32,300 nt of DNA, from positions 1 to 32,300 of the forward strand of contig JAPKGU010000023.1 in assembly GCA_026647565.1 (NCBI GenBank), in the 5' to 3' direction. Numbering within the stretch: position 1 is the first letter of the stretch; the number at the start of each line of letters is the position of its first letter. Below are positions 4,376-19,568 of the stretch, piece after piece. Position numbers and translations under genes: made by a program. This stretch comes from Phycisphaerales bacterium. GTDB lineage: Bacteria > Planctomycetota > Phycisphaerae > Phycisphaerales > UBA1924. The notes under the pieces are model-generated. The model ran no database searches and was not told the DNA's origin. It was given only the letters and a program-made list of their open reading frames with translations.

Positions 4376-4631
4376 GTCGGGGGCATCGCGTGCGTATGCA
4401 GGAAAGCGGAGAGGGAAGCGGTATGGGGGAGTTCGTATCTGTGCTCAGGGGACGTGATGCCACGAAATGTCTACATTGCGGTGTCGGATTTGTCAGGGTT
4501 GGCCAGTGTCGAAATACGCGTAACACCTTGTGTTCATATGAGTTACGTCGTGTCGTCCCCGGACGGTCCGACATGGCCAAAAAAGCGCCAAACCCAACCT
4601 CCTTACAGAAATCAAACGGGAACGCGCGTAA

Positions 4632-4928
4632 ATGATGTACGCCTCGCCGACGAGGCCGTTGCCGGTGCCGACCCCGCCCGCCGTGTGCAGGAGTTTGTCC
4701 TTCGTCCGCGTGATGCCCCCCTCTCGTAACAGGCGATGTCGACGTCGTAGAACGGCAGGTCGGTCGTCATGACCTTCGTCCACATCGAGGTGAGGGGCCG
4801 GTTGAACCAGTCCAACTCCCCGTATGTTGCCGCCCACGTCCACCGGCGGCGGAACACGTCCGGCTGCGGGAGTTCAGTCCCCACCCCCGAGCCCATGCCC
4901 AGATACGCGTACTCCGAGACCGTCGTCG
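4632..4928 (-). pseudogene. RHS/YD-repeat protein fragment A, frameshifted
   Basis: Read on the minus strand, this segment encodes SEYAYLG, TELPQPDVF, YGELDWFNRP and FYDVDIA in one frame. It continues in a second frame with GGITRTKDKLLHTAGG and GNGLVGEAY. Fragment B (8965-9501) carries the same motifs in a single frame, with high nucleotide similarity, so a one-base deletion near 4712-4735 explains the switch. Similarity to B begins abruptly at 4632 and stops abruptly near 4928. There is no start, no signal peptide and no toxin tip, so it is a dead piece of an RHS wall-associated or secreted polymorphic-toxin-type protein. It lies 180 bases downstream of the capV stop. Confidence 0.8.
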
Positions 4929-5107
4929 TGCAGCACAGATGGCCCAGGCGCCGGGCGTCGCTGAGTCCACGAGTCCACGGTGTCGAAGCTGGTACAGTTG
5001 AATGCAGGCCCATAAGCGCAGCTTCATGCAATGGGCGATCCGAGAGCCGACTGCGCAGGCGAGTGCGACTCACGACTGTTCGTGCGAGCATTTTCTGATC
5101 GGCTGAG

Positions 5108-6076
5108 TCACGGCACCGGAGTCCACTCGGACGCAGGGATCTGGAAGAACCTTGCCGACAGTGCCTGTACATGCGACTTCGCGTCATCCTCCCCGAGCGA
5201 TCGAAGATCGCGCAGTGTGCCGGGGCTCGCATCGTCCATCTCATACCCGCCTCCGTCGACCACTCGATCAATCTCAACGATTGAGTCTCGACCAACGAGC
5301 CGCTGGGCCATGAACATGGATGCGGCCCGATTGGCTTCCATCAACAAGTTGACGGCGACTCGGTTCTTCATGGAGACGTGCTGCCAAGCGCCGCCGCGGC
5401 GTGCGGCTTGGTTCAGGTGGAACGGGGTCCGCGTCGTACCGACGCTCAGGATCTCGACTCCGTCGCGAGGGCGGTTGAAGCGATCTATTGCCTCAATGAC
5501 GCCCACGAGTACGGGACAGTTCGCCCATACTCCTCCATCGATGTAGTCTGAGCCATCGCCCGCTTGGAACGCGCGGTAGAACACTGGCGCCGCCGAGGTG
5601 GCCATCGCCACTTCCCAGGCCTTCTTTGTGTGATCATTCACGAAGTCCGCGTGATGGCGTGTCTTGAAACACACCGGCTTGCCACCCGCGGCATGGAATG
5701 TGTTGATCACCAGCGGACGCTTTGAGTCGCCAAGCCGTGTTTGATCACCGATCCGCTTCTGGATCAGATCTTGGAGGATCGCGTCGTTGTGCTTCGGGAA
5801 AGCCACCTGCTTGCAGAACCCCCACTTTCGACGGACCACACCGGCGGGGAAGATCGTCGGCCCCTGCTCCCTGTAGAAGTCCCGGATGGAGTGAACGTCC
5901 TGGCCCAGTCCTATCGCGAGGGCGATCAGGCCGCCGGTGGATGTGCCCACGATCAGATCAAAGTGGTCGGCGAACCGCTTGCCACTCAGCTCCTCCACCC
6001 GAGCGAGGAAGCTGGCCGTGTACAGTCCGCGAATCCCACCGCCGCTCAGACTCAGCACCCGAAACTTCTGGCTCAT
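5108..6076 (-). CDS. capV: Patatin-like phospholipase, CBASS effector of the CapV type
   Basis: A 322-residue patatin-family lipid hydrolase. The oxyanion-hole motif GGGIRG is at residues 12-17, the nucleophile motif GTSTG at 44-48 (Ser46) and the DGG motif at 180-182 (Asp180), giving a complete Ser/Asp dyad. No signal peptide is seen, so it should act from the cytoplasm on the inner membrane. CapV enzymes are normally idle until a cyclic dinucleotide binds, and then degrade phospholipids and kill the infected cell. ATG 6076 is chosen because it overlaps the TGA of the E2-like gene as ATGA and has a GAGGGGG site 8 bases upstream; a GTG at 6082 is possible. It is the last gene of the cassette. 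Assignment as a CBASS effector rests on the adjacent CD-NTase and E2 genes. Confidence 0.9.
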   Translation of the reverse strand: MSQKFRVLSLSGGGIRGLYTASFLARVEELSGKRFADHFDLIVGTSTGGLIALAIGLGQDVHSIRDFYREQGPTIFPAGVVRRKWGFCKQVAFPKHNDAILQDLIQKRIGDQTRLGDSKRPLVINTFHAAGGKPVCFKTRHHADFVNDHTKKAWEVAMATSAAPVFYRAFQAGDGSDYIDGGVWANCPVLVGVIEAIDRFNRPRDGVEILSVGTTRTPFHLNQAARRGGAWQHVSMKNRVAVNLLMEANRAASMFMAQRLVGRDSIVEIDRVVDGGGYEMDDASPGTLRDLRSLGEDDAKSHVQALSARFFQIPASEWTPVP

Positions 6077-6528
6077 TCGCACACCCCCTCGGCGGCCTCC
6101 CTGTCACCCTTTGGTGCGGGCGGAGCGTCAGTGTAATCACCTCGCCACTCTCCGAAAGCGAGCCAGTGCTCGTAGTGATACAGCCACCGCACGCTCCACG
6201 GCACAATGGTGTGCGCGATCGAGTCGCTCTCCGTCCATTCGTGCTTGGCCGGGTCATAGAGACAGAGGGTGCCGTCCGCGTACAGGTGCGGCGTTCGCAT
6301 GCCGTGGGCCTCTAGCACCAATGGCGGCTCCCGCAGATAAACACCCGGCGGAAATGGCGGAGCATAGATGTACTCGACGGTGTAGACAGCGCTCGTCGGC
6401 GTGGGTCGCAGTCTCAACGTGCAGCCGAGTACCGGCACACCGAGGACCTTGACGTGCCAGATCTTCGCCTTGGCGAAGAGTGTCTTGAGGATGTTGGCCT
6501 GTTGCTGCAGGGTCAAGGGCGGCCGCAC
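6073..6528 (-). CDS. E2-like conjugating protein of short type II CBASS
   Basis: The product has 151 residues. A beta-rich E2-like core contains PP(F)PPGVYL near residue 60, the motif HLYADGTLCLY at 81-91 with candidate catalytic Cys89, and the conserved tail IVPWSVRWLYHYEHWL followed by GEWRG (about 108-130). This pattern matches the stand-alone E2 proteins of short type II CBASS operons, which lack E1 and JAB partners. Family members are reported to act on the C-terminus of the neighbouring CD-NTase and raise its activity. GTG 6528 is the preferred start: it lies one base after the TGA of the CD-NTase gene, with GGACGGGG upstream, so the genes are probably translationally coupled. Longer frames reaching into the CD-NTase gene look like shadow translation. 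The stop overlaps the capV start. Confidence 0.82.
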   Translation of the reverse strand: MRPPLTLQQQANILKTLFAKAKIWHVKVLGVPVLGCTLRLRPTPTSAVYTVEYIYAPPFPPGVYLREPPLVLEAHGMRTPHLYADGTLCLYDPAKHEWTESDSIAHTIVPWSVRWLYHYEHWLAFGEWRGDYTDAPPAPKGDREAAEGVCE

Positions 6529-6529
6529 G

Positions 6530-7762
6530 TCACACCCCGTCCGCGGACCCGTGGAAGTTGTGGGACGGCACGGGCTGAATTCCGGACACAGCCTTCGGCT
6601 CGGGCAAGATGTGCAAGCCGGTTGCCCCTGCCGCTCCCAGAACGCCCGTCTTGCTCGCCATTTTGACCGAGTCCTCAGAGGCGTTGAAGGCACGCTTCAC
6701 GACCTTGTCTCCGAACGACTCCGCCAAGATCGGGTACAGACTGGGGACGCCGCGGGCGGCCTTGGCCTCGGCGAGCATCCTCTGCATCTTGCCGATCATG
6801 GCGCAGAACTTCCCGTATGCCGCATCGTCGAGCGGGGCAGCCAGATCCTCAACGCCGCCGTCGTGCGGCGCGATCTCATCCGCCGGGTTGAGCACGACGA
6901 TCCGTCGTGAGCCCGCCATAGCGATCTGGGACAAGATCCCGTTCAGAACGGTCTCCAGTCCCTCCGCGATCGACTCTTCCCCCCGATAGTGCCGGCCCGC
7001 CAGAGTCGTCAGCAGGATGGATGTGGGACGGCATGTGTCAGCAATGAAGTCGATGTCCCGCTGCCGCTTGAGGAGCTGGGTGATGAGGCGAAGGGGGGCC
7101 TTCACATCGACATCCTCCTGCGGAGGAACGGGGGCCACGCTCGCAGCAATGCGCTTCTCGGAAAGAACGCCCCTAATCTCGCAGCGTGCCTGCAGCCAGG
7201 CCGCGAAGCGGAACGGGTCGGTTCGGCGCCACGTTTCGATGGGCTTCTTGTAGTCATGCCACCGCTTCGGCTCGCACATCAGGAGCCGTACGCCCTCAGA
7301 ATCGCTCGGGTCCTTGCACGTAGGAACGACGTCGAGATAGAAGTCGTCGGAGGTGTAGGCCAACCGGATGCACTTGCCGCTGGTACCGAGCTTGTCCTGA
7401 GCCTCCCGGTTTCGCTCCGCAAAGTCCGCATTGGCGATCAAACGCGACTGCACGCTCCCGTAGAGCGATTGCGACGTGCGGACATAGGGATCGATCGTGC
7501 AACGACACACGGTGTCGATGTCGAACGGCACCACATCCTGTCCCAGCCGCATGGGACGGATGGTGGTCCGCTGCAGCATGGAGCCTTGAGGGAAGATCTC
7601 CGGCCCAAGTCGATCCAGATGAGTCTCGGTCTCAGTAAGCCATTCGCCGACGATACGGTACCGCTTCACCGCGGTCAGGAACTGGGTTTCGGTGAGCTGT
7701 ATCTGCTCGCAGATGCGGCTCAGGTAATCGTCGATAGTGCCAACTTGATACGAGATCGGCAT
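6530..7762 (-). CDS. CD-NTase (cGAS/DncV-like nucleotidyltransferase) of a CBASS operon
   Basis: A 410-residue nucleotidyltransferase expected to make a cyclic di- or trinucleotide when phage infection is sensed. It has the family signature: GS at residues 60-61 within FPQGSML, the metal-binding DID at 81-83 within PFDIDTVC, and a third acidic residue Asp144 in FYLDVVP. The helical C-terminal half is typical of OAS/cGAS-like bacterial enzymes. The start ATG 7762 has a strong GAGGAGGG site 8-9 bases upstream. The protein ends in a flexible tail finishing ...HGSADGV, the kind of exposed C-terminus an E2-like partner could modify. I did not assign the clade or the product nucleotide; both need a family alignment. 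The gene runs directly into the E2-like gene and is preceded by the TIR gene after 168 bases. Confidence 0.9.
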   Translation of the reverse strand: MPISYQVGTIDDYLSRICEQIQLTETQFLTAVKRYRIVGEWLTETETHLDRLGPEIFPQGSMLQRTTIRPMRLGQDVVPFDIDTVCRCTIDPYVRTSQSLYGSVQSRLIANADFAERNREAQDKLGTSGKCIRLAYTSDDFYLDVVPTCKDPSDSEGVRLLMCEPKRWHDYKKPIETWRRTDPFRFAAWLQARCEIRGVLSEKRIAASVAPVPPQEDVDVKAPLRLITQLLKRQRDIDFIADTCRPTSILLTTLAGRHYRGEESIAEGLETVLNGILSQIAMAGSRRIVVLNPADEIAPHDGGVEDLAAPLDDAAYGKFCAMIGKMQRMLAEAKAARGVPSLYPILAESFGDKVVKRAFNASEDSVKMASKTGVLGAAGATGLHILPEPKAVSGIQPVPSHNFHGSADGV

Positions 7763-7930: not shown

Positions 7931-8785
7931 TCACGTGAGCGTGGTCATCGGACGGACGACTGCGAAAAGCGATTCAACGATCTCGTCTAGACCCAAGACA
8001 CCGGTATTGAGCGCTACCTTGTCCGCGAGGGTTGGGCTGTAGCTCGCGACCTCATCCTTTGAGACCTTGTGCCAGATCGGGAGAATGACCTTGTCGGTGC
8101 CGGAGGTTTCCTTTGTCACCAGACCATCGAGTTCGTACTGCGTCCAGTTCTTCGCAAAGAACGCAGAGGAGAGCACAACGATTCCGAAGCGGCTGTTGGC
8201 GAGCCCTTTGTCGATCGATCGCCGAAGGCTGTCGCCGACGCGCAGCTTGAACTCGTCGTACCACACGTTCACGCCCCGGCGACGGAGGCCGTCCGCGAGT
8301 GCGCGGACAAAGCTCTCCTTGTCCTCACTCGCGTGGGAGATGAATACGTCGTGTTCCTTGGGAGTTGGGAGCATGGTGGTTGCGGGAACCGGCGAAGAGG
8401 CCGCCGTGAGTGAGCGGCGAAGGTCGGCCTCGAACTGCGCCATGCGGCGTTCTTGATCTTTCTGAACCGACTGCTGCTCTCTGCTTTGTTCCCGCTGCAG
8501 ATCCCGTTCGTAGTCGTGCTTGCGTCTCTCCTTTGCCGCGATCTGACTCGACAGGTCCGCCTGCTTCTTCTTGATCTGCTCGATGTCCCGATGCAGGCGA
8601 TCGATCTCGCGGGCCTTGGTCTGAAGCGTGGCCGAGGAAGTGGCTGCGCTGATGCTGCGATCAACCTGGCCAATGCGGGCGATCTTGTCCGCTTCCCGTC
8701 TCCGCTCATCTGCGAGCTTCTGGTGTAGCTGGGTGAGATCGCGGTTCACGCTCTCAATCTGTCTGCGGCAACTCTCAACGCTCAT
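7931..8785 (-). CDS. Coiled-coil TIR-domain protein, probable NADase effector
   Basis: A 284-residue protein. Residues 1-125 are charged, heptad-like and free of membrane segments, predicting a long coiled coil. After a Pro/Thr linker (about 128-143) comes a TIR domain from 145 to about 280: HDVFISHASEDK, VWYDEF, then NWTQYELDGL with Glu218 in the catalytic position of NAD-cleaving TIR domains. Such proteins deplete NAD+ when oligomerised. ATG 8785 is chosen because AGAGG lies 9 bases upstream and the coiled coil starts at once; the 61 codons further upstream are Cys/Arg-rich and unlike protein. It is the first gene of the minus-strand cassette. It lacks an obvious SAVED, STING or other nucleotide-sensor domain, so its link to the CD-NTase is positional. 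Confidence 0.88.
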   Translation of the reverse strand: MSVESCRRQIESVNRDLTQLHQKLADERRREADKIARIGQVDRSISAATSSATLQTKAREIDRLHRDIEQIKKKQADLSSQIAAKERRKHDYERDLQREQSREQQSVQKDQERRMAQFEADLRRSLTAASSPVPATTMLPTPKEHDVFISHASEDKESFVRALADGLRRRGVNVWYDEFKLRVGDSLRRSIDKGLANSRFGIVVLSSAFFAKNWTQYELDGLVTKETSGTDKVILPIWHKVSKDEVASYSPTLADKVALNTGVLGLDEIVESLFAVVRPMTTLT

Positions 8786-8964
8786 CGGAGTACCTCTTGA
8801 TCCGCACCGACAGCGGACTGACCTGCTCAGAGTGCCGCATATGCACACCCGCCTGAGACATCGGCATCGACCAACCTGATCGCAGTACGCACGACGGATT
8901 TGATCATACGGATACACACGCCAAACCGGCGTTTGGAGGACTCCAAGCCCCGACCGCGCGGATG
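8786..8964 (-). other. Leader region of the TIR-CBASS cassette
   Basis: This 179-base stretch separates fragment B of the RHS remnant from the TIR start codon. It must contain the cassette promoter if the operon is transcribed from its own start, but I could not pick convincing -35 and -10 boxes. No small gene with a ribosome site is visible. Confidence 0.4.
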
Positions 8965-9501
8965 TCACACGTCAAACAAGCCGTTCGAATCCTGCCTGAA
9001 GAACTCCCAGTTGCCGGTGTGCTCCAAGGCCCAGTTCTCGTCACGCTTGGCGACCGTGATCGCGCTCCCGCCCCAGTGCCCCTCGAGCGCCTGAGTTAGC
9101 CGCCCCCGGCCCACCCCGTCCATGGTGTATGCCACGTCGAACAGGCCGTTGCCGCTTCCGGCGGCACCCGCCGTGTGGACATTGTCCTCCGTCCTGGTGA
9201 TGTTCCCGTTCTCGTCATACGCGACATCCACGTCGTAGAACGGCACGTCGGTTGACAGGTCCTTCGTCCACGTCCAGGTCACCGGGCGGTTGAACCGGTC
9301 CAGCTCCCCGTACGTCGACGCCCCCGTCCACCTGCGGCTGAACACGTCCGGCTGCGGCAACTCCGTGCCCACTACTGAGCTAGTGCCGAGGTACGCGTAC
9401 TCCGACACCGTCGTGGCGCCCACCTTCACACGGTGCGTCCGCGTGTTCGTCAACCACGACCACGAAGAGCAGCCGCACCTGGGCGTGGGCAACGAACTCA
9501 T
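8965..9501 (-). pseudogene. RHS/YD-repeat protein fragment B, truncated at both ends
   Basis: One minus-strand frame of up to 178 codons encodes an RHS core segment: TRTHRVKVG, SEYAYLG, LPQPDVFSRRW, YGELDRFNRPVTW, FYDVDVAYDENGNITRTED and AYTMDGVGR, then GNWEFF before a stop. DENGNI is a YD-type repeat motif. There is no N-terminal export region, no complete repeat array and no C-terminal toxin domain, so the original protein of probably more than 1000 residues is missing. The part shared with fragment A (4632-4928) spans about 9125-9420; B extends further at both ends. The ATG at 9501 is unlikely to be a genuine start. Confidence 0.8.
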
Positions 9502-10014: not shown

Positions 10015-10431
10015 CTACATTAATGCGTCTTTTCTTATACCATCTTCAAACCGACGTTGGTCTAGTTCTTCGCTGGCACAGGGAGCCTGGGAAGGTGGAG
10101 AGCAATACTTGACGCCCTGTCGAACAGATGCTTTGCAGTCATCTAGTATCATCGATGCAACTACGGCATCCATACATCCCTGCTCGCTGCTGCCGCTTGG
10201 AACACCCATTTGTCTTGCGCAACACTGTGCTTCATTATAATCACGTTCGCATCGATTGGCTGGCAATACATCCAGAATTACGTGTCCAAAGACCCACAGT
10301 ATGCGGAATGTGCATTGTCCATTTTCGCGCTGGGCGGGTGGCACCGACCTCCTCCAACCCTCCGCCCTGATCACACGGACCGCCGTGCCACCGAGGTTGG
10401 CCGCTCTGGGCCGAGCTCGGTGTCCGAGCAA
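10015..10431 (-). CDS. Cysteine-rich hypothetical protein, possible RHS C-terminal remnant
   Basis: The frame has up to 138 codons, but only the last 80 or so look like protein. They hold eight cysteines, including NRCERDYNEAQCC, EQGCMDA, LDDCKAS and VKYC, a pattern suggesting an exported disulphide-bonded or metal-binding domain. No convincing start was found: upstream codons in the same frame are Arg/Pro-rich, and the only nearby alternatives are TTG or CTG near 10260. This fits the 3' end of a longer gene whose 5' part has been lost, for instance an RHS-type protein tail, since RHS fragments lie nearby on the same strand. The gene precedes the small membrane-protein gene by 22 bases. Confidence 0.35.
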   Translation of the reverse strand: MLGHRARPRAANLGGTAVRVIRAEGWRRSVPPAQRENGQCTFRILWVFGHVILDVLPANRCERDYNEAQCCARQMGVPSGSSEQGCMDAVVASMILDDCKASVRQGVKYCSPPSQAPCASEELDQRRFEDGIRKDALM

Positions 10432-10770: not shown

Positions 10771-11805
10771 ATGCCCCCACTCACCCCCTCTCTCACCCTC
10801 GCCCTCACCTACGACCTCAAAGCCGAGTACGTCGCGCAGGGCTACACCGCCGACGAGTGCGCCGAACTCGACAGCGTCGAGACCATCGACGCCCTCGCCT
10901 CCGTCGCCGAGTCCATGGGCCACCGCACCGTCCGCATCGGCCACGTCAAGGAACTCGCCCGCCGTCTCGTCGCCGGCGAACGCTGGGACCTGGTGATCAA
11001 CATCGCCGAGGGCATGCACGGCATCGGGCGCGAGGCCCAGGTCCCCGCGCTCCTCGACGCGTACCGCATCCCCTACACCTTCAGCGATCCGCTCGTCTGC
11101 GCCCTCACGCTCCACAAGGGCATGTGCAAGCGTGTCATCCGCGACATGGGGCTGAACACCGCCCGCTTCGCCCTCGTCTCGCGCGAGAGCGACCTCGACA
11201 CCATCGACCTCACCTACCCCCTCTTCGCCAAGCCCGTCGCCGAGGGCTCGAGCAAGGGCGTCACCGGCGCCTCGAAACTCTCCTCCCCCGCCGAGCTTCG
11301 CGCCCTCTGCCTCTCCCTCCTCTCGCAGTACAACCAGCCCGTCCTCGTCGAGGAGTACCTCCCCGGCCGCGAGTTCACCGTCGGCATCGTCGGCACAGGC
11401 GATCGCGCCCGCGTCCTCGGCTGCATGGAGATCCACATCGGCGCCGCCGCCCCCCACGGCTTCTACTCCGCCACCAACAAGGACGACTGGGTCGGCAAGG
11501 TCTCATACTCCATCGCCACCGACGCCGAGGCCCGTGCCGCCGCCGATCTCGCCCTCGCCGCCTACCGCGGCCTCGGCTGCCGCGACGTCTCGCGCGTCGA
11601 TGTCCGCTCCGACCGCGCCGGCAAGCCCGCCTTCATCGAGATCAACCCCCTCCCCGGCCTCCGCCCCGGCTGGTCCGACCTCGTCTTCCTCTGCAAGTAC
11701 GCCGGCATCGAGTACGACCAGCTCATCCGCTGGATCATCGAGTCCGCCCTCGAGCGGGTCGGTGCCGGCGCGCGCACCGCCGCGCCCCACGGCGCCCACC
11801 CATGA
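10771..11805 (+). CDS. ATP-grasp ligase of the D-Ala-D-Ala ligase-like family (first of pair)
   Basis: A 344-residue cytoplasmic ATP-grasp enzyme that should join a carboxylate to an amine through an acyl-phosphate. The N-terminal part has WDLVINIAEG near residue 75, then ALLDAYRIPYTFSDP. The central part has YPLFAKPVAEGSSKG (ATP-binding lysine) and VEEYLPGREF. The end has FIEINPLPGL, the equivalent of the metal-binding ExNxxPG of Ddl. The ATG at 10771 starts the conserved domain; no strong ribosome site is visible. The stop overlaps the next start as ATGA. Because the second gene belongs to the same family and an acetyltransferase follows, I infer a small peptide or modified amino acid pathway rather than peptidoglycan D-Ala-D-Ala synthesis; the substrate is unknown. 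Confidence 0.85.
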   Translation: MPPLTPSLTLALTYDLKAEYVAQGYTADECAELDSVETIDALASVAESMGHRTVRIGHVKELARRLVAGERWDLVINIAEGMHGIGREAQVPALLDAYRIPYTFSDPLVCALTLHKGMCKRVIRDMGLNTARFALVSRESDLDTIDLTYPLFAKPVAEGSSKGVTGASKLSSPAELRALCLSLLSQYNQPVLVEEYLPGREFTVGIVGTGDRARVLGCMEIHIGAAAPHGFYSATNKDDWVGKVSYSIATDAEARAAADLALAAYRGLGCRDVSRVDVRSDRAGKPAFIEINPLPGLRPGWSDLVFLCKYAGIEYDQLIRWIIESALERVGAGARTAAPHGAHP

Positions 11806-12878
11806 ACATCCTGATACTCCACGACCACGTCCCGCCCGATGCGCCCGCCGATGCGCAGGACCTCCTCCTCCAGGTCAACGCGGTCGATGCCGCCCTCCTC
11901 GCCGCCGGCCATCGCATCGATCGCCTCGCCTGCACGCTCGATCTCGCCTCGCTCGAATCAACCCTCACCCGCGTTCGTCCCGACCTCGTCTTCAACCTCG
12001 TCGAGACCCTCGCCTCCCGCGGCCGCCTCTGCCCCCTCGTTCCCCTCCTCCTCGAATCCCTCGCGATCCCCTTCACCGGCAACGCCTCCGCCCCCACCTT
12101 CATCACCGCCAACAAGCTCACCGCCAAGCGCCTCATGCGCGCCTCGAACCTTCCCACCGCCGACTGGATCGAGCTCGACCCCACCCGCCGCCACCTCCCC
12201 ACCCACACGGTCGGCGGGGCCGTCGGGGGCGCCTCGTTCCCCAGGTCCTCGACCTGGATCGTCAAAAGCGTCTGGGAGCACGCCTCCATCGGCCTTGACG
12301 AAGACTCCGTCGTCACCGCCACCACGCGCGAAGAGCTTGAATCTCACATCACCCGCCGCCTCCCCGCGCTCGGGGGCGAGGGCTTCGCCGAGAAGTTCCT
12401 CGACGGCCGCGAGTTCAATCTCTCCCTCCTCGAAGACCCGCGCGCCCCCGGCGTCCCCGAGATCCTCCCCCCCGCGGAGATCGCCTTCGAGGGATACGGC
12501 GCCGACAAGCCCAAGGTCATCGGCTACCGCGCCAAGTGGGACGAATCCAGCGACGAGTACAAGCGCACCGTCCGACGCTTCGACTTCCCGCGCGAGGACG
12601 CCCCTCTCCTCGACCGCCTCCGCGGCATCGCCCGCCGCGCCTGGGAAGTCTTCGGACTCTCCGGCTACGCACGCATCGACTTCCGCATCGACGCTCGCAA
12701 CGAGCCGTGGATCCTGGAGGTCAACACCAACCCCTGCATCTCACCCGACGCCGGCTTCGCCGCCGCGCTCGATCGCGCGAGCATCCCGTACCCCGCCGCC
12801 ATCGATCGCATCGTCCGCTGCGCCGTCGCCCGCCGCGCCCCCTCGCCCCTCCCCCACCACGCGAGCGCACCACGATGA
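11802..12878 (+). CDS. ATP-grasp ligase of the D-Ala-D-Ala ligase-like family (second of pair)
   Basis: A 358-residue ATP-grasp protein. Features in order: MNILILHDHV at the start, DLVFNLVETL near residue 65, IPFTGNASAP followed by NKLTAKRLM (about 88-110), STWIVKSVWEHAS with the ATP-binding lysine near 150, EKFLDGREFNLSLL near 200, and RIDFRIDARNEPWILEVNTNPCIS near 290-315, which carries the Ddl-like ExNxNP metal site. It is more distant from the first ligase than a simple tandem duplicate would be. It starts within the stop of the first ligase gene (ATGA), and its own stop overlaps the GNAT start in the same way, so the three products are probably made together. Substrates are unknown. Confidence 0.85.
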   Translation: MNILILHDHVPPDAPADAQDLLLQVNAVDAALLAAGHRIDRLACTLDLASLESTLTRVRPDLVFNLVETLASRGRLCPLVPLLLESLAIPFTGNASAPTFITANKLTAKRLMRASNLPTADWIELDPTRRHLPTHTVGGAVGGASFPRSSTWIVKSVWEHASIGLDEDSVVTATTREELESHITRRLPALGGEGFAEKFLDGREFNLSLLEDPRAPGVPEILPPAEIAFEGYGADKPKVIGYRAKWDESSDEYKRTVRRFDFPREDAPLLDRLRGIARRAWEVFGLSGYARIDFRIDARNEPWILEVNTNPCISPDAGFAAALDRASIPYPAAIDRIVRCAVARRAPSPLPHHASAPR

Positions 12879-13414
12879 GCACAACCGACGCGCCCCAGCG
12901 CCAACCCGCCGACCTCCTCCGCACCCTCACCCTGCGCGAGACCGCCACGCGCGACGACATCGCACGCGTGCGTGAGATCGTCTCCAGCACCGGATTCTTC
13001 TACGACCACGAGATCGACGTCGCCTGCGAGCTCGTCGAAGAGACGCTCGCCAAAGGCCCCGTCGAGGGCTACCGCTTCCTCTTCGCCGACGCCCCCGACA
13101 CGCACGGCGTCCCCCGCACCATCGGCTACACCTCCTACGGACAGACGCCCTGCACCGAGGGCACCTTCGACCTTTACTGGATCGCCGTCCACAACGACTT
13201 CCGCGCCCACGGCCTCGGTCGCTTCCTCCAGCGCGAAACCGAATCGCGCATCCGCGCGCTCGGCGGCCGCCGCCTCTTCGCCGAGACCTCCGGCCGCGAC
13301 CTCTACGCCCCGACCCGCAAGTTCTACACCTCCCTCGGCTACGCCGAAGAGGCCCGCCTCGCAGACTTCTACGCCCCCGGCGACGACAAGGTCATCTACG
13401 GCATGCGCCTCTGA
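12875..13414 (+). CDS. GNAT-family N-acetyltransferase
   Basis: A 179-residue acetyl-CoA-dependent transferase. The acetyl-CoA-binding motif A region reads DLYWIAVHNDFRAHGLGRFL, followed by a helix and the C-terminal RKFYTSLGYAEEARLADFY typical of the last GNAT strand and helix. The N-terminal 20 residues look disordered. ATG 12875 overlaps the second ligase stop as ATGA. Its place as third gene of a tightly coupled operon with two amino-acid ligase-like enzymes suggests it acetylates either the amine substrate or the product of the ligases. Alternatives, such as ribosomal-protein or antibiotic acetylation, are less supported by context. Confidence 0.85.
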   Translation: MSTTDAPQRQPADLLRTLTLRETATRDDIARVREIVSSTGFFYDHEIDVACELVEETLAKGPVEGYRFLFADAPDTHGVPRTIGYTSYGQTPCTEGTFDLYWIAVHNDFRAHGLGRFLQRETESRIRALGGRRLFAETSGRDLYAPTRKFYTSLGYAEEARLADFYAPGDDKVIYGMRL

Positions 13415-19438: not shown

Positions 19439-19568
19439 CACTCCCGCCGGTCGACGGCCGGGCCCGGTGCACGGGTGTCCCGTGAACCTGGTCAGGGCTT
19501 GACCGCAGCAGCCATAAGCGAGCGTCATCCGGTGCCGCCGGTGTCCTGGCCGTCGACCGGCGGGAGTG
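19439..19568 (+). ncRNA. ffs: Signal recognition particle RNA (small bacterial type)
   Basis: A 130-base RNA gene. Its ends, 19439-19459 and 19548-19568, are a perfect 21-base inverted repeat that closes the hairpin. Between them lie the conserved SRP core elements on the plus strand: CCCGTGAACCTGGTCAGG (GGTCAGG at 19490-19496) and AGCAGCCATAAGCG (AGCAGCC at 19507-19513), which form the Ffh-binding internal loops. The RNA scaffolds Ffh and FtsY for co-translational membrane targeting. The apical loop between the two elements is GCTTGACCGC instead of the usual GGAA-type tetraloop arrangement. A TAGCAT at about 19428-19433 could be a -10 box, but it is close to the predicted 5' end. The conserved core makes the call firm; exact ends are estimated. 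Confidence 0.88.

Follow-up and report, generated by a model that had tools for sequence, protein, structure and literature searches.

Gene organisation of the locus

The window, by which we mean the whole stretch of 32,300 nucleotides analysed, carries on its forward strand three genes that an earlier sequence-only reading had described as an operon of two ATP-grasp ligases and a GNAT acetyltransferase joined by ATGA overlaps. This description was confirmed, all the ORFs and both overlaps being present as follows.

10771..11805, + strand: lig1, 344 aa, Ddl-like ATP-grasp ligase, core partner of KamA
11802..11805, + strand: ATGA overlap of lig1 and lig2, read in the sequence
11802..12878, + strand: lig2, 358 aa, second Ddl-like ATP-grasp ligase, more divergent
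12875..12878, + strand: ATGA overlap of lig2 and GNAT, read in the sequence
12875..13414, + strand: GNAT, 179 aa, GNAT-fold N-acetyltransferase, relative of PDB 2R7H

At both junctions the downstream ATG shares bases with the preceding TGA. The frame of lig1 is open upstream as far as a TTG at 10210; the ATG at 10771 is nevertheless the best start, because relatives start within about 8 residues of it. No clear Shine-Dalgarno sequence was seen in the window before the starts of lig1, lig2 or GNAT. Pfam recognised Dala_Dala_lig_C (PF07478) in lig1 with 103.5 bits and in lig2 with 61.3 bits (cut-off 24); for the third ORF it gave GNAT domains. The arrangement of the trio is found again in the genus, the family and the order as well as in other phyla, which argues against chance. 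A phosphofructokinase-like gene lies downstream and is common to the genus only.

Elsewhere in the window, a likely CBASS anti-phage system was identified at 5108-7762 on the reverse strand by PADLOC matches:

6530-7762, - strand: CD-NTase-like cyclase (PADLOC)
6073-6693, - strand: E2-like protein (PADLOC)
5108-6082, - strand: patatin-like phospholipase effector (PADLOC)

Beside CBASS, a TIR-domain protein (7931-8968, reverse strand) is a PADLOC PDC-S66 candidate (E 9e-104) and also has a ThsB-type TIR match. Similar RHS-like fragments, recognised by ORF reading, flank the defence genes (4612-5295 and 8965-9501, both on the reverse strand) and perhaps mark an insertion hotspot. A bacterial small SRP RNA was found at 19456-19554 on the forward strand (58.9 bits).

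The two ligases and their relation to Ddl

The AlphaFold (AF2) models of lig1 (pLDDT 88.5) and lig2 (pLDDT 89.3) both have the Ddl fold, and the PDB fold nearest to lig1 is a Ddl. The best NCBIfam Ddl model gave 152 bits for lig1 and 81 bits for lig2 against a cut-off of 243, and all the other NCBIfam Ddl/Van models were also under cut-off for both ligases. In a tree of 58 sequences made by a quick method, lig1, lig2 and Ddl each form one side of a branch (SH-aLRT 100, 99 and 99), the branches that join these groups being weak, and neither ligase groups with genuine Ddl.

In an alignment with E. coli DdlB, the members of both ligase families keep K97, K144, E180, K215, R255, D257, E270 and N272, which we take to be the ATP/Mg and catalytic residues, with the one exception of E270, which is D in one lig2. 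Three presumed D-Ala-binding residues are changed: H63 is replaced by E in both families, the Y216 position has D/E in lig1 and W in lig2, and the L282 position has D in lig1 and G in lig2. The acidic residues gained by lig1 at these last two positions would suit a diamino acid.

The genome of the window contains another ligase (L001:1453-2403, reverse strand) with 34% identity to E. coli DdlB, whose neighbours read as MurB and FtsQ (from ORF reading, not from a profile test), and a separate Ddl is present in every operon genome checked. In view of the scores below the cut-offs, the separate clades, the changed D-Ala site and the genome's own Ddl, neither lig1 nor lig2 is, as judged from sequence, a Ddl, and the earlier view that a housekeeping Ddl function is unlikely was borne out.

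A further clade of Ddl-like ligases, with 27-29% identity to lig2, was observed in the same order (L028, L029 and L034), where these ligases adjoin a protein with a HEAGH metallopeptidase-like motif. In a related family, Ddl-like ligases that occur singly form a separate clade with other gene neighbours and were not counted as the trio; ATP-grasp matches on Rhizobial plasmids were also set aside, as lone ligases in other contexts.

Linkage to kamA and distribution

When bacterial and archaeal genomes were scanned with an alignment of lig1, at least 573 relatives were obtained, of which the best 80 were analysed. These have 50-60% identity, with the exception of two from the window's genus, and belong to at least eleven named phyla, seven of the 80 being unassigned and some NCBI MAG labels being loose. 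A KamA-family radical SAM gene is placed upstream on the same strand in 75 of these best 80 of at least 573 loci; the five without it are two from the window's genus, two that are cut by contig ends, and L059. The order kamA-lig1-lig2-gnat is the most frequent one (38 of the same 80 loci). Four or five long loci among the matches listed have kamA and lig1 without lig2 or GNAT, so that this pair appears to be the core, to which lig2 and GNAT look like add-ons, and acetylation and a second ligation would not be universal. Fusions of lig1 with lig2 (L086, L113), of lig2 with GNAT (L065, L128) and of an HDAC-like enzyme with GNAT (L104) were found, and these fusions together with the HDAC-like partner add support for a functional coupling of the module.

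Phosphate transporter genes (F15, F21) are found downstream in only 7-9 of the best 80 of at least 573 loci and were therefore left out of the pathway. Lysine 5,6-aminomutase is not a recurrent neighbour in the same 80, and lysine fermentation was rejected on this ground.

Taking an E below 1e-50 as a strong lig1 match and kamA within 4.5 kb as linked, lig1 was found in 57 of 294 Planctomycetota genomes (kamA linked in 42, elsewhere in 14, not found in 1) and in 55 of 243 genomes of Desulfopila's class (Desulfobulbia-type), where 50 have kamA linked, 4 have it elsewhere and the last one, with lig1 at the start of a contig, gave no kamA match. Carriage of lig1 is about 20% in each sample and, when both are pooled, kamA is linked in 92 of the 112 lig1 genomes and elsewhere in 18 more (110 in total). 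KamA is present in 56 of the 57 lig1 genomes of the Planctomycetota sample vs 74 of the 237 others (Fisher 1e-22, uncorrected for relatedness), while in Desulfopila's class only the linkage is informative because nearly all genomes hold some KamA-family member. Within the window's order the ligase pair occurs in 5 of 201 genomes, with a KamA above 270 bits in 5/5 of these vs 0/196 of the others, and in two genomes of this order (G073 and G179) kamA adjoins the trio. The trio is thus conserved well outside the strain, its recurrence extending over more than ten phyla, and it is well supported that it represents a real, widely conserved pathway module.

Among the best 80 of at least 573 relatives, the sequence nearest to lig1 of the window's genus comes from Desulfovibrionaceae (L079, 60% identity), a hint that lig1 was transferred horizontally. 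On a Thioflavicoccus mobilis plasmid (L157, 4771-8948) a lone Ddl-like ligase was observed next to genes for a KamA-family protein, for SbnA and for a homologue of ornithine cyclodeaminase, the last two belonging to 2,3-diaminopropionate synthesis; this cluster is perhaps a related diamino-acid peptide pathway.

Identity of KamA

In the window's genus kamA is not beside the trio, and in two genomes with megabase-scale contigs it is located about 1.6-2 Mb away. The KamA of the window's genome is found beyond the window, split over two contig pieces with 126 identical bases in common and with 85% and 94% identity to the single gene of a congener (G001). The KamA of another congener (G003) matches the C. 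subterminale lysine 2,3-aminomutase 2A5H over 366 residues (E 2e-137). Among the KamA-family equivalog models it scores highest with the lysine model TIGR03820, narrowly short of the cut-off (498.7 vs 525.4), followed by the glutamate (449, cut-off 650), arginine (399, cut-off 600) and EpmB (245, cut-off 369) models, and lysine is on this ranking the best-supported substrate. When this KamA is aligned with 2A5H, the CxxxCxxC radical SAM motif is matched, as are the residues that we take to be the PLP lysine and the two aspartates binding the lysine side chain; the same motifs can be read in the two pieces of the window's genome.

The acetyltransferase and its HDAC-like partner

The closest solved relative of the window GNAT is PDB 2R7H (E 1e-40), whose label of "putative D-alanine N-acetyltransferase" is the depositors' annotation. 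The AblB model TIGR03827 gave no match to the window GNAT, and two members of its family reached 23-26 bits on this model vs a cut-off of 205. Distant GNAT matches on plasmids were rejected, being isolated genes with no ligases in their annotated neighbourhoods.

In another 18 of the best 80 of at least 573 loci the cluster includes a GNAT-HDAC fusion protein, the HDAC part of which is closest to acetylpolyamine amidohydrolases (E 4e-72). Among the congeners, G002 has this fusion, a full-length copy of which is missing from G000, G001 and G003. The presence of an HDAC-like enzyme beside the GNAT suggests that an amine side chain is N-acetylated reversibly.

Predicted pathway and alternative explanations

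We consider it probable that kamA-lig1-lig2-gnat encodes a pathway in which lysine is turned into beta-lysine, this is ligated into a di- or tripeptide, and an N-acetylation follows, the product being perhaps a compatible solute. The trio would be the ligase and acetyltransferase half of this four-gene pathway, from which kamA would have become unlinked in the window's genus. KamA would convert L-lysine to beta-lysine, and Lig1, activating a carboxylate with ATP as Ddl does, would couple beta-lysine to an amino acid. Lig2 may couple a further residue, or act on the same dipeptide, and GNAT would acetylate a free amine, most probably one in the beta-lysine moiety, from which the GNAT-HDAC fusion (acetylpolyamine-amidohydrolase-like) of some genomes may take the acetyl off again. 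We infer these substrates, the order of the steps and the product. This would be an acetylated peptide of beta-lysine, small and soluble, and most plausibly a compatible solute or stress metabolite. That role is a guess suggested by analogy with acetyl-beta-lysine and NAGGN. It is weakened by the origin of many hosts in freshwater or groundwater samples, according to the record titles; moreover, Rfam revealed neither an osmotic riboswitch nor any other element near kamA in 16 loci, and no riboswitch or other regulatory element in the window.

The sequence-only reading had proposed a dedicated pathway making an acylated dipeptide or modified amino acid. The dedicated pathway stands, since the trio is conserved and non-Ddl; the trio as the whole of it does not, as KamA, its most constant partner, is encoded outside the window and had been missed. 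The acylated product survives in a narrower form, as a predicted beta-lysine-containing acetylated peptide.

The known pathway to N-epsilon-acetyl-beta-lysine, a salt-induced osmolyte, consists of KamA and GNAT enzymes (PMC9337991, PMC3543383). As both are found here and AblB was not found in 10 of 11 operon genomes, that of the window included, the operon might be a variant of acetyl-beta-lysine (ablA-ablB) synthesis. This is unlikely, given that the constant partner of kamA is lig1 and not GNAT, that the GNATs of the family are far under the AblB cut-off and that lig2-GNAT fusions tie the GNAT to a ligase. In addition, one genome (G213, locus L093) holds both a kamA-ablB pair (C59:30186-32298) and a kamA-lig1-lig2-gnat operon (C45:57467-60536), so the operon should not be merely such a variant. 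Beta-lysine also occurs in streptothricin and viomycin, and relatives of Ddl act in cell-wall synthesis; together with the patchy distribution of the operon this would agree with a cell-wall or secreted antibiotic-like beta-lysine peptide. Such a product is improbable, because no peptidoglycan, dedicated exporter or other biosynthetic genes recur beside the operon in the best 80 of at least 573 loci, every genome checked has its own Ddl, and the presence of lig1 in about 20% of the genomes of two large groups is more like general metabolism.

The KamA family includes EpmB, and protein modification is known among ATP-grasp ligases, which would favour an attachment of beta-lysine to protein, like that by EpmA/EpmB on EF-P or by RimK-type ligases on protein tails. 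We regard this as quite improbable, since KamA is far under the EpmB cut-off, the ligases resemble Ddl, not RimK, in both sequence and fold, and the neighbourhoods of the best 80 of at least 573 loci show no recurring conserved protein that could be the target. A redundant D-Ala-D-Ala or D-Ala-D-Lac activity of either ligase or of both, as the best-matching folds and families would suggest, is very improbable: the scores under every Ddl or Van cut-off, the clades apart from Ddl and the altered D-Ala site are joined by the linkage to kamA, and on these grounds a housekeeping Ddl role was rejected for the trio. The preferred reading thus remains that of an acetylated beta-lysine peptide made by the four-gene pathway.

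On a broader scale, we see roughly even chances that these clusters reveal a widespread, unrecognised class of beta-lysine peptides in more than ten phyla, made independently of ribosomes and NRPS by KamA with one or two Ddl-like ligases and a dedicated GNAT, with HDAC-like deacetylation in some lineages.

Novelty and comparison with known systems

No description of KamA or beta-lysine combined with ATP-grasp or Ddl was found in the open-licence literature, which also described no product for the trio, in agreement with the earlier statement that none is assigned. The enzyme families are all known; the combination, its breadth and the assignment to beta-lysine are new relative to that literature. 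Such trios might be mentioned in the 2009 survey of ATP-grasp amidoligases from Iyer and co-workers. The operon is present in about one fifth of the sampled genomes of two large bacterial groups without an assigned product, and the link with lysine 2,3-aminomutase gives a concrete candidate substrate. If true, the proposed pathway would extend both beta-amino-acid metabolism and the chemistry of Ddl-type ligases, and annotations such as "D-alanine-D-alanine ligase" and the "D-alanine N-acetyltransferase" label of 2R7H can mislead for such genes.

The likeness of lig1 and lig2 to the Ddl/Van family lies in the fold, the ATP-grasp domain and the catalytic residues; they differ in their separate clades, their changed D-Ala-binding residues and their scores under all curated cut-offs. 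Similarly, 2R7H is the closest solved relative of the window GNAT and carries the depositors' putative D-alanine label, whereas the linkage of the operon points to beta-lysine instead. The osmolyte N-acetylglutaminylglutamine amide (NAGGN) comes from a pathway in which an acetylated dipeptide is assembled by a GNAT and an ATP-grasp ligase, with neither ribosome nor NRPS, and here the operon differs by having KamA and two separate Ddl-type ligases; an asparagine-synthase-like amidotransferase is not recurrent among the operon neighbours in the best 80 of at least 573 loci. Like ablA-ablB of methanogens and some bacteria, the operon combines a GNAT acetyltransferase with a lysine 2,3-aminomutase in a single pathway, and it differs from that system by the addition of two Ddl-like ligases and by a GNAT that is not AblB.
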